From Kordia sp. TARA_039_SRF (GTDB lineage Bacteria; Bacteroidota; Bacteroidia; Flavobacteriales; Flavobacteriaceae): a stretch of DNA of 64,000 nucleotides. Of this stretch, positions 54,697 to 57,671 are shown piece after piece. The notes beneath the pieces are model-generated. The model did no database searches and was not told the origin of the DNA. It saw only the letters and a program-made list of their open reading frames with translations. Position 1 is the first letter of the stretch. The number at the start of each line of letters is the position of its first letter. The translations under genes and the position numbers were made by a program. The DNA lies in the NCBI GenBank assembly GCA_006383075.2, contig SMNH02000002.1:321127-385126 (forward strand), given 5' to 3'.

Positions 54697-55746
54697 TTAC
54701 TGCAAATAATGCACAATAAGCGTATTTTTCTCTTCGCTGTTGCTGATACCGTAACCATCTCCAAACGCTACTTTGAAACGTACTTGAGCGTGTTTACTCA
54801 TGGCTCCTGCTAATTTTTCAGCAATATTTTTAGTTCCTTTATCGTAATAAAAAATAGTCGGTGTGTTGGCAAAAAAGCTAGGTTTTGTACGCCATTCAGG
54901 ATAGTTTTTTACTTTATAATTTTCTTTTTTTAAGATATTGAGTAAGTTATTTTTAACTTTTTCATTGGGATTGTATGAATAAAAGCGAACAGTGTATGCC
55001 CTATTAAGACTGGTAACACGCACTCTGTTGGGATCAATTTTAATTTCATCTACAGCTTTGGTATTGGATGTACGCTTGTACCCAACAGCAATCATATTTT
55101 GCCGCTCCATATTTTCTTTTGTATCTGGAATAGGAATGATGTTTTTAATAGCAACGTTTTGATTTTTTAAACTCTTTACCAATTCATATACTTCTTGTTT
55201 ATCAACATTTTTTCCATACCAAACCGTGTTACTTCCAGCTGCTGACGGATAATTTGCATTAGGTTGTCGTACACTTAAATTAAAGTTATCCAAACGCTTC
55301 ACCGTGTTAATCACTTTGGCGTTATCTCCTTTACATTGATAATATTGCACAATGGTTTTTTCATCAACTTTATAGGATATTTTTTCCAATTTGGTTTGCG
55401 CTACGTTTAATTTTGTCAACAATTGTTCTTTTGAGAGATTTTCTGAATTGAGACGTATTTTGGTGATTTCGTTTTGGATACTCTTCACTAGATTTAAAAT
55501 AGAATCTTGACTAGATTCTTTATTTTTCAATTCTAAAGCAATCAATTCCCGTTCTTTCGTCTCCAACTCTAGTTGTTGGTGCTCAATAGCTTGCATTTTC
55601 TTTTTATACTGTCCGTAGAAAATCATCGCAGCAACTAGGACAATCAAAAGCAAACCAACAACCAAAATCATATAATTATAACGCTTGTCTTTACGCTGCG
55701 CTTCGGCAATTGTTTCTTCTATTGTTTTATGTGTTTTCTTCGTCAT
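54697..55746 (-). CDS. Membrane coiled-coil protein with paired LytR_C/SPOR-like domains, third gene of the CHAT operon
   Basis: 349 residues: a cytoplasmic start with charged residues, one TM helix (about 25-45, YMILVVGLLLIVLVAAMIFYG), then a coiled coil of about 90 residues (HQQLELETKERELIALELKN), and two C-terminal domains of 70-90 residues (one near 160-225 with NTVWYGKNVDKQEVYELVKSL, one near 260-349 with PTIFYYDKGTKNIAEKLAGAM). The pattern tIfYyd/wYGk...A/ElakaL is that of LytR_C/SPOR-like ligand folds. It starts 10 bp after the CHAT stop, so the three genes form an operon. Probable anchor, sensor or substrate of the protease; function inferred from place only. Confidence 0.7.
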   Translation of the reverse strand: MTKKTHKTIEETIAEAQRKDKRYNYMILVVGLLLIVLVAAMIFYGQYKKKMQAIEHQQLELETKERELIALELKNKESSQDSILNLVKSIQNEITKIRLNSENLSKEQLLTKLNVAQTKLEKISYKVDEKTIVQYYQCKGDNAKVINTVKRLDNFNLSVRQPNANYPSAAGSNTVWYGKNVDKQEVYELVKSLKNQNVAIKNIIPIPDTKENMERQNMIAVGYKRTSNTKAVDEIKIDPNRVRVTSLNRAYTVRFYSYNPNEKVKNNLLNILKKENYKVKNYPEWRTKPSFFANTPTIFYYDKGTKNIAEKLAGAMSKHAQVRFKVAFGDGYGISNSEEKNTLIVHYLQ

Positions 55747-55756
55747 TGCTATATTT

Positions 55757-56716
55757 TTATGTGATAATTAATCGCATGAATTCCTCATTTAGTTCTTTAC
55801 GCTCATTATCGGTAAGTTGAGACAAGGCATTCATCAAACGTTTACGCTTTAGCTCAAATACATCTATCAAGGTAATTCTATTTTTTTTCTTTTGAATTTC
55901 TAAAAATGGATAGCTACTAAATGCTCCTGGAATTAATCCTAAAAGTGCAGAAGAGATATCTTTATTATTGCTTAAAAATAAAAACACGACCAACACTAAA
56001 CTTAACGCAATAGCGCCGTAAATCAATCTGTAATGAAAACTTACGCTTCTTTTGTAACCCGCTTTGGCAACCGCAATTTCTTCTTCAGAAACAATGGTAT
56101 TGACCAATCCGTCAGTTGATTCAGATGCCACAGCATCCGTGATTTCATCTTGTGGTAATGCTGCTTCATTCACAATCAATTTCGGAATGTATTCATCTCC
56201 TTGATCGGTCATGGCAATGCGCGACAATGCAATTTTAAACGAATCTTTAATCGTTCTACCATTGAATAAGGCATTGTAAAAATTTCTCGAAAAACTAATG
56301 GCAACATCGTCTGGAATTTCGTTTTTCATCCCAATGATATAAGCAATATTTTCATTAAAATCGTCCATGCCCGCCAAACTGTGACAGGTATTTAAAAATA
56401 CACATTGAATGTGATCGGTAAACCCCGACAATACATTGGACAACTTCTCAATAGATACTTCTTCTTTATAACCATCTACATCTTCCAGCAACAATTGTTC
56501 TTCTGTATTTCCATGTCCAGAAATATGTAAAATATTCGGTTTAATTTTTAGTAAATGGTCTATCAAAAGGTCTTTTGTAACGGCGCCTCTCGACTCAAAC
56601 TCGAATTTGGTTTTATCGTCACAACTGCCCCAAACATCGCGTATGGCGTTTTCTTCCACGTCCAAACGCAGTGCTTCGCTATCTATCGGATTGGCTTTGA
56701 TAAATAATATGTTCAC
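55757..56716 (-). CDS. CHAT-domain caspase-like protease with TM anchor
   Basis: 319 residues from GTG 56716. The caspase-like CHAT fold is clear: NILFIKANP first strand, NILHISGHG with the catalytic His (His68), LEDVDGYKEEVSIEKL, VFLNTCHSLAG with the nucleophile Cys (Cys111) and AISFSRNFYNALFNGRTIKDSF. A membrane helix follows at about 230-249 (LIYGAIALSLVLVVFLFLS), perhaps a second near 255-272, then a charged tail. CHAT proteases are the bacterial caspase relatives that cut partner proteins in defence (gasdermin activation, type III-E Craspase). Here it is sandwiched between a nuclease gene (16 bp upstream) and a coiled-coil membrane gene. No gasdermin or CRISPR gene lies nearby. Confidence 0.88.
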   Translation of the reverse strand: MNILFIKANPIDSEALRLDVEENAIRDVWGSCDDKTKFEFESRGAVTKDLLIDHLLKIKPNILHISGHGNTEEQLLLEDVDGYKEEVSIEKLSNVLSGFTDHIQCVFLNTCHSLAGMDDFNENIAYIIGMKNEIPDDVAISFSRNFYNALFNGRTIKDSFKIALSRIAMTDQGDEYIPKLIVNEAALPQDEITDAVASESTDGLVNTIVSEEEIAVAKAGYKRSVSFHYRLIYGAIALSLVLVVFLFLSNNKDISSALLGLIPGAFSSYPFLEIQKKKNRITLIDVFELKRKRLMNALSQLTDNERKELNEEFMRLIIT

Positions 56717-56732
56717 TGTGTTTGAAATGATC

Positions 56733-57671
56733 TTATAAAGTTAAATTCATACTATTGGCTTGTACTTCCATTTGCACACTTTCATTACTGACATTGCGCA
56801 CGTTGACACGCGATAAAATAATCCGTTCGGGAGCATTGCTTTGAAACAATTCCGCCGCCGATTCAAAAGACAATTCACTCAATTGCTCAATAAAAGACAC
56901 GGTTACTTGATAGGTCTCAGCATCTTTAAAAGCATTGAAATGTGTAGCGCGAACAGCTTCTTCCGAGCGACTCACAGGTTTAATGATGCGCTTTTTCTGC
57001 ATTTCTCGCTGTTGACTTGTCAAAAATCCTGCTCTGTGCAATTCGCCATCTTTTACGTAATACACTACTTTCCAAAACAAATACGGCAAACGTACAATTT
57101 CACCATTGACCGTTTTTAAAAATTCAGGATCGTCCGCTCTAAAAATAGGGCCGCTAAACAGGCAAATTTTCATGCTATGCTTTACCACTTCATGATGTAA
57201 AATATAATTTTCAATCTGTTTCCAAACGCCTCTGTTCAACTTACTTACTTGCGGTACGGCGTTTGTAAAGTAAAAGGTAGAACGCGCTGCGTATGTGGCG
57301 GCTTCTTCGTCCGTTCCCCATTGTACATCTTCACGTTTGGCTAAATGTCCTTTGTCAAAATCGTTCTTTTTGGCATTGTACAACGCGTTTCCCCACTGAC
57401 TTTCTTCTGGAATACGATCATCTTTCAACCAACGCTCGCTTCCTTCAAAAATATGTTCTCTTTTAAGCTTATAAAAATGTTTGCCATCTACATTTACGGC
57501 AGAATAATACGGAAACTTTCGAAACGGATTTTGCAATACGCTGTAATTAACGTACGGCAAATAATAATCGGAAACCGTTAAATTTGCTGCTGCAAACTTC
57601 TGTGTTTCACTATCGCTAATACGTGGCGCAGATACTTTATGTGTTTCGAAAAAATTGACTGAATACCCCAA
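56733..57671 (-). CDS. DNA/RNA non-specific endonuclease, first gene of the CHAT operon
   Basis: 312 residues. The betabetaalpha-Me nuclease core of the NUC1/NucA family is present: DFDKGHLAKRED with the catalytic His109 (DKGH, variant of DRGH), FTNAVPQVSKLNRGVWKQIE with metal-ligand Asn146 and Glu154, and LFSGPIFR for the following strand. No signal peptide is seen, so it seems cytoplasmic, unlike the usual secreted members; N- and C-terminal extra parts (1-65, 220-312) could hold an inhibitor or cleavage region. The open frame has no ATG or GTG start: TTG at 57671 is used, or ATT a few codons before. It heads a three-gene unit with the CHAT protease. Confidence 0.88.
   Translation of the reverse strand: MGYSVNFFETHKVSAPRISDSETQKFAAANLTVSDYYLPYVNYSVLQNPFRKFPYYSAVNVDGKHFYKLKREHIFEGSERWLKDDRIPEESQWGNALYNAKKNDFDKGHLAKREDVQWGTDEEAATYAARSTFYFTNAVPQVSKLNRGVWKQIENYILHHEVVKHSMKICLFSGPIFRADDPEFLKTVNGEIVRLPYLFWKVVYYVKDGELHRAGFLTSQQREMQKKRIIKPVSRSEEAVRATHFNAFKDAETYQVTVSFIEQLSELSFESAAELFQSNAPERIILSRVNVRNVSNESVQMEVQANSMNLTL

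Follow-up and report, generated by a model that had tools for sequence, protein, structure and literature searches.

A three-gene operon encoding a soluble nuclease (NUC), a CHAT protease that carries a membrane module (CHAT) and a transmembrane (TM)/coiled-coil protein (COIL) is located in the window, i.e., the whole 64,000-nucleotide stretch of Kordia sp. TARA_039_SRF DNA under analysis. The trio could well represent a membrane-anchored protease-nuclease conflict module acting in suicide or defence, a reading to which we give about an even chance. Its direct basis is the gene set itself, the co-conservation of the genes, the conserved active sites, the mostly protease-linked clade of the nuclease, and a membrane module and socket shared with other loci. 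The role in defence is one that we infer, and protection against phage is putative.

The three genes and their occurrence in Flavobacteriaceae

The features of the locus, all on the minus strand, are the following.

56733..57671, minus strand: NUC, soluble nuclease of the Endonuclease_NS (NucA/EndoG) type, 312 aa from a TTG start (Pfam PF01223, E 7.2e-37)
57345..57356, minus strand: DKGH motif of NUC, residues 106-109, with the catalytic-type His109, followed by Asn146 and Glu154
55757..56716, minus strand: CHAT, caspase-like CHAT protease with a C-terminal membrane module, 319 aa, GTG start
56513..56515, minus strand: His68 of CHAT (SGHG), invariant in 11/11 aligned rows
56384..56386, minus strand: Cys111 of CHAT (NTCH), invariant in 11/11 aligned rows
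55760..56110, minus strand: C-terminal membrane module of CHAT, residues 203-319 (linker, hydrophobic segment(s), LKRxRL helix)
54697..55746, minus strand: COIL, TM/coiled-coil protein of 349 aa with its TM peak at residue 25, presumed to sense the envelope
55564..55746, minus strand: N-terminal socket segment of COIL, residues 1-61 (basic helix and TM)
54700..54999, minus strand: putative C-terminal LytR_C-like domain of COIL, residues 250-349
54697..56191, minus strand: strongly diverged allele relative to K. periserrulae, made up of COIL and of CHAT from about residue 176

Pfam matches and TM peaks confirm that the three genes are real, lie at these positions and have the Endonuclease_NS, CHAT and TM/coiled-coil identities that the sequence-only reading had assigned to them. 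Its description of a nuclease without a signal peptide also holds, as none is evident and hydropathy reveals neither a signal nor a TM segment in any of the 13 NUC proteins. The intact dyad and TM helix that it had attributed to CHAT are borne out by the invariant His68 and Cys111 and by a TM peak in 13/13 CHAT proteins, and the TM peak of COIL recurs in 13/13. Overall, the earlier observation is upheld in part, as is the interpretation that went with it. CHAT displays the feature of the CHAT peptidase family, a CHAT domain with a His/Cys dyad.

The co-conservation on which the earlier proposal depended was checked and found: 13 complete trios occur in three Flavobacteriaceae genera, in 9/11 Kordia genomes, in one genome of a second genus (g168) and in 3/7 genomes of a third (g222). 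The nine Kordia CHAT genes (the window's and those of 8/10 other genomes) are all adjoined by NUC and COIL. Outside Kordia, the complete trio was located in G192 (locus L060) and G246 (L061); at a limit of E 1e-40 it was recovered from 3/7 searched genomes of the genus of G246 and, around G192, from 1/60, namely G192 itself. It was not found outside Flavobacteriaceae in the samples searched. Gene order and strand are constant across the 13 trios, with gaps of 5-17 nt. The trio is missing in 2/11 Kordia genomes. An empty site left by clean loss in G007 and G009 was set aside as a reading, because their contigs end near the expected place.

The start codons of the first two genes are unusual. 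NUC begins with TTG in 9/9 Kordia genomes, and the codon at the CHAT start position is GTG in four copies, GTT in three, GTC in one and ATT in one. An in-frame ATT TCA, 4 nt past the nuclease stop and four codons upstream of the GTG, is kept in 9/9 Kordia genomes. These weak starts (56716-56732 of the window and the matching places in L014-L021) may provide control of two dangerous proteins. Because the CHAT start position lacks ATG, GTG and TTG in five of the nine Kordia copies, fusion of the two proteins through a programmed frameshift was considered; it was judged unlikely since the gap in L061 holds an in-frame stop, and the conserved ATT is the simpler start. In the CHAT alignment (A2), the starts of five Kordia copies were clipped by the start-codon rule, and the first ~20 columns comprise fewer rows. 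Short DNA repeats at the locus look like chance.

The nuclease, its protease-linked relatives and known systems

The solved chains nearest to NUC are those of Endonuclease G. His109, Asn146 and Glu154, which we take to be catalytic or metal-binding residues by analogy with the Serratia nuclease, are invariant in 12/12 rows (11 trio copies and one stand-alone relative). Because of this invariance, and because NUC precedes CHAT in 13/13 trios, the activity of NUC seems to be selected.

Most of the plasmid relatives of NUC that were scanned are linked to trypsin. A search of plasmids with NUC returned 148 records, and 16 places were hand-picked from the first 60 rows; among the 15 nuclease proteins scanned (the sixteenth, L106, was left out), 11 carry a fused Trypsin_2 domain, one, from Polaromonas, shares an operon with genes for a trypsin and an AAA_16/NPHP3_N protein, and three have neither a fused nor an operonic trypsin at threshold. 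The trypsin-nuclease fusion is also present in one genome elsewhere in the phylum (L079). A tree constructed from 56 nuclease domains contains a branch (support 100/99) that separates a 30-row side, made up of the trio nucleases, their relatives and the stand-alone G011 protein, from 26 other Bacteroidota Endonuclease_NS domains that include Kordia's own paralogues and have a hydrophobic N-terminus in 24/26 cases by a simple cut. The tree comprises 12/13 trio nucleases (L116 was left out, and L095 gave no usable ORF) and shows kinship, not frequency, because similarity to NUC guided the choice of relatives; the long branches of L079 and L125 lie beside the trio, whose exact position within its side is unsure. 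Apart from the trio nucleases, the proteins that score highest against the profile are those of G011 (284 bits, a member of that profile), L105 (189) and L124 (186). No protease was detected in these three best-scoring relatives, and the ~360-residue N-terminal part of L105 and L124 has no Pfam trypsin match at 1e-4. By domain kinship, NUC is placed in a mostly protease-linked NucA lineage, apart from Kordia's secreted-type nuclease, and CHAT is seen to occupy the usual place of trypsin beside a NucA-type nuclease.

Two loci of the relatives deserve mention in their own right. The G011 nuclease (L034:9605-10402) is a stand-alone 265-aa member of the clade of the trio; upstream of it lies a gene for a 261-aa protein without an assigned role, and the G011 genome has no CHAT-type match at E 0.001. 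On Ti plasmid NZ_CP039902.1 (L120, 53000-78000), annotation places four CHAT, two TIR, one caspase and two S8 peptidase genes within ~20 kb of a trypsin-NucA fusion gene.

The closest described class is that of the NucA-peptidase conflict systems ('System 3', NucA-trypsin), which, according to Kaur et al. (2020; PMC7159879), couple Endonuclease_NS to a peptidase, in some cases with a TM, occur mostly in alphaproteobacteria and are predicted to be activated by proteolysis. The trio likewise couples Endonuclease_NS to a peptidase, and NUC lies on the same side of the 100/99 branch as trypsin-linked NucA domains. Unlike in those systems, its peptidase is a membrane-anchored CHAT with its own TM/coil partner. 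Pfam found only CHAT as a peptidase in the trio, with no trypsin there or among the nine window neighbours, and no match to an EAD-named family, a domain present in some NucA-peptidase members, at E up to 1. The main text of PMC7159879 contains no word beginning with 'chat'. The trio is filed as a CHAT variant of the NucA-peptidase conflict system that fails the trypsin feature of the class.

A second comparison is provided by LypABC of Caulobacter, a tripartite cell-lysis system whose LypC combines a trypsin with a NucA-type endonuclease (PMC13236601). That source reports that the peptidase residues of LypA and LypC are essential for lysis and that the putative endonuclease residues of LypC are dispensable, which counters the simple version of our reading in which CHAT activates NUC. 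The trio resembles LypABC and CARD-NLR systems, as far as those are described there, in pairing a protease with a NucA-type endonuclease, LypC being likened by description only. It differs from them in that neither an NLR ATPase nor a CARD part was detected in it; no ATPase match was obtained in the three trio proteins or in the nine window neighbours.

Based on this precedent, CHAT itself could be the decisive executor, cleaving host or phage proteins or activating an unlinked lytic effector, with the nuclease only clearing phage or host DNA afterwards or restraining or stabilising the complex. The membrane module does occur in sister loci that have no NUC-profile ORF (0/13 non-CHAT loci, while 3/3 trio controls were detected), as would suit such an arrangement. 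The invariant active site of NUC and its constant place before CHAT argue the other way, and we regard an executor role of CHAT as unlikely.

EACC1-caspase two-gene systems, in which a single-TM protein stands next to a caspase-superfamily peptidase and which are thought to act at the membrane (PMC7159879), also share with the trio a TM protein gene beside a caspase-like peptidase gene. The trio departs from that account in its gene order, in having CHAT instead of a caspase, in the TM module on the protease and in the added nuclease gene. No EACC1-named Pfam match was found in 11 COIL members.

The membrane module shared with TIR systems

SAVED-CHAT proteins act in a caspase-cleaving cascade. 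The fold nearest to that of CHAT is SAVED-CHAT (PDB 8tl0), from which the trio protein differs in having no SAVED match and a TM module at its C-terminus. A profile of the last ~118 CHAT residues (A1) matched 20/397 Flavobacteriaceae genomes, with five CHAT-type matches (three from Kordia), 12 TIR-type, one cut at a contig end and two weak ones (G104 and G381) that were kept out of the type counts. A broader module profile matched 7/346 genomes of the order, five weakly and two at loci already known, and 2/395 in an overlapping sample of the phylum, both at known loci. All 12 TIR-type proteins match TIR_2. By BLASTP, CHAT and a TIR protein are 32% identical over 134 columns (E 7e-13), and the likeness is confined to the membrane module and its linker.

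A gene encoding a caspase C14-DUF676 hydrolase-TPR-S protein lies on the same strand in 12/12 complete TIR loci, and the TIR gene stands directly, or one small gene, behind it (12/12). SGHG and DCCH are invariant in this family (A7). The membrane module is followed by a coil-type gene in 13/13 CHAT loci and equally in 13/13 non-CHAT loci, where it encodes a small TM/coil-type protein, eleven of which were aligned. Comparison of the COIL profile with that of the TIR-type partners (hhalign, A4 versus A11) gave a probability of 96.5 and E 9.5e-10 over residues 6-61 only, a match that a shared TM can inflate; the two groups share the first ~60 residues, a basic helix and TM, and differ in the remainder. 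At full length, COIL and a TIR-type partner have no BLAST similarity in 2/3 pairs, and the third pair gives E 4e-4. The trio and the TIR loci are alike in the homologous C-terminal membrane module and the homologous first ~60 partner residues, and the TIR loci differ in the TIR head, the caspase-DUF676-TPR-S protein, the remainder of the coil protein, extra genes and the absence of a nuclease-profile match.

The TIR/caspase-hydrolase-TPR-S operon of Flavobacteriaceae (L055-L059, L062-L064, L066, L067, L022 and L023) often includes genes for two TM proteins, of 650 aa and ~200 aa, and a 74-aa gene with a weak PGDYG match, and is repeatedly found close to one and the same pair of flanking genes (~512 and ~419 aa). 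No description of this operon was found in the literature searched.

The economical reading is that the module and the start of COIL form a paired membrane socket, on which enzyme heads, sensors and soluble executioners would be exchangeable. The setting appears to be of the conflict type, because the same module with TIR heads clusters with caspase-hydrolase-TPR-S genes. In the proposed mechanism, COIL would reside in the inner membrane with its variable sensor part facing the envelope, and its N-terminal helix and TM would pair with the membrane module of CHAT. An envelope disturbance, phage entry or another intruder may act as the trigger that clusters the complex and switches on the caspase-like protease. 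CHAT would then cleave either the cytosolic EndoG/NucA-type nuclease or a factor that keeps it in check, after which NUC, as the killer, would degrade the nucleic acids of the infected cell. In the TIR version, taken as the parallel, a TIR head is carried by the same membrane module, and the soluble partner is a caspase-hydrolase that bears a presumed nucleotide sensor (TPR-S); TIR products reportedly activate caspase-like proteins in work on Thoeris. The COIL model consists of a helix (residues 9-100) followed by alpha/beta domains, with a pLDDT of 68 and a pTM of 0.34. Because this model is poor, we only infer the topology and sensor role of COIL. Matches of COIL to ZorB-type models in PADLOC (E 0.0012 and 0.12) are weak, cover only TM and coil, and were set aside.

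More tentatively, the CHAT membrane module and COIL might form a general inner-membrane receptor socket of Flavobacteriaceae, into which CHAT or TIR initiators and EndoG-like nuclease or caspase-lipase/TPR-S executioners plug, with the envelope sensor swapped between species; it would be a counterpart in bacteria of receptor-proximal initiator complexes feeding a protease-nuclease or TIR-caspase death pathway. If so, one small membrane platform of marine Bacteroidota bears either a protease-nuclease or a TIR-caspase pair, and offers a clean test of signal handover from bacterial receptors to interchangeable death effectors. Caspase-fold proteases and EndoG-family nucleases are both parts of animal cell death, and the trio would be a further case of the two working together. 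The NucA-peptidase class of Kaur et al. would likewise gain a CHAT variant equipped with a candidate sensor. In the open-licence papers that formed the scope of the search, outside which most subscription papers lie, no description of the trio or of the shared CHAT/TIR membrane module was found.

Divergence of the presumed sensor end and genomic neighbourhood

COIL and the CHAT membrane module are the most variable parts of the trio, which would suit a sensor. NUC and four flanking genes of the window are 87-92% identical in nucleotides to those of K. periserrulae, with dS values of 0.5-0.8. Residues 1-175 of CHAT are encoded with 88-96% identity per block, which drops to 53-72% from about residue 176; COIL is at 54% with dS saturated, and the next gene is back at 87%. 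Between K. periserrulae and K. zhangzhouensis, COIL has a dN of 0.13 and NUC of 0.22, though COIL evolves faster elsewhere. The sensor end seems to be exchanged or diversified between species with retention of the protease and nuclease domains, and COIL and the CHAT membrane module appear, from these sequence comparisons, to have recombined between species, a claim that rests mainly on the window/K. periserrulae pair because synonymous sites are saturated or nearly so in most of the remaining Kordia pairs. Strict co-exchange of the CHAT module and COIL as one unit was rejected as a general rule: all four type combinations occur among Kordia species, as read from identity tables with COIL typed by its C-terminal domain, and therefore the two do not always move together.

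The sequence-only reading had proposed a check for nearby defence genes; the window neighbours that were scanned look ordinary by Pfam (nine genes) and PADLOC (10 genes). A defence island was discarded, since PADLOC on the 10 neighbouring genes, out of the window's 50 ORFs of at least 150 aa, gave one marginal match, PDC-M58B (E 9e-06, covering 40 residues in an amidohydrolase/PD40 protein), which was judged to be chance. Along with the top-scoring NUC relatives in which no protease was detected, the restriction of the trio to Flavobacteriaceae in the samples searched and its absence from 2/11 Kordia genomes, such surroundings weigh against the conflict reading.

These ordinary neighbours would suit a housekeeping or developmental module for cell death or envelope stress rather than an anti-phage one, in which COIL would monitor the cell wall by means of its LytR_C-like domain, and the trio would serve to clear damaged cells or to recycle DNA. 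The chromosomal position and flanking genes of the trio are largely conserved between Kordia genomes, NUC and the CHAT domain have low dN/dS (window versus K. periserrulae) and the C-terminal fold of COIL appears LytR_C-like, all of which agree with such a role; the low dN/dS speaks equally for the conflict module. It fits poorly with the patchy presence of the trio (9/11 Kordia, 3/7 g222), the divergent sensor alleles and a platform common to TIR/caspase/TPR-S proteins, and we hold it to be improbable. Although inherited synteny could account for the Kordia copies alone, the notion of three independent genes that are neighbours by chance in one lineage is largely refuted and highly improbable, given that the same trio stands among other neighbours in two other genera and that a coil-type partner follows the module in every non-CHAT locus too.

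Further genes border some of the trios. Six of the nine Kordia trios (L014-L017, L019 and L021) have two genes upstream of NUC on the same strand, one of 533 aa, whose L014 copy was scanned with Pfam and matches FAD_binding_4, and one of ~117 aa that is lipoprotein-like; this pair is absent from the window, L018 and L020. In one Kordia genome (L019:12312-16773), a fused C-5 cytosine/Eco57I-type methyltransferase, an HTH gene and an unknown gene are inserted between COIL and the conserved flank. In G192 (L060:9482-11218), a patatin-like phospholipase gene lies on the same strand 38 bp past COIL and may be an added effector.
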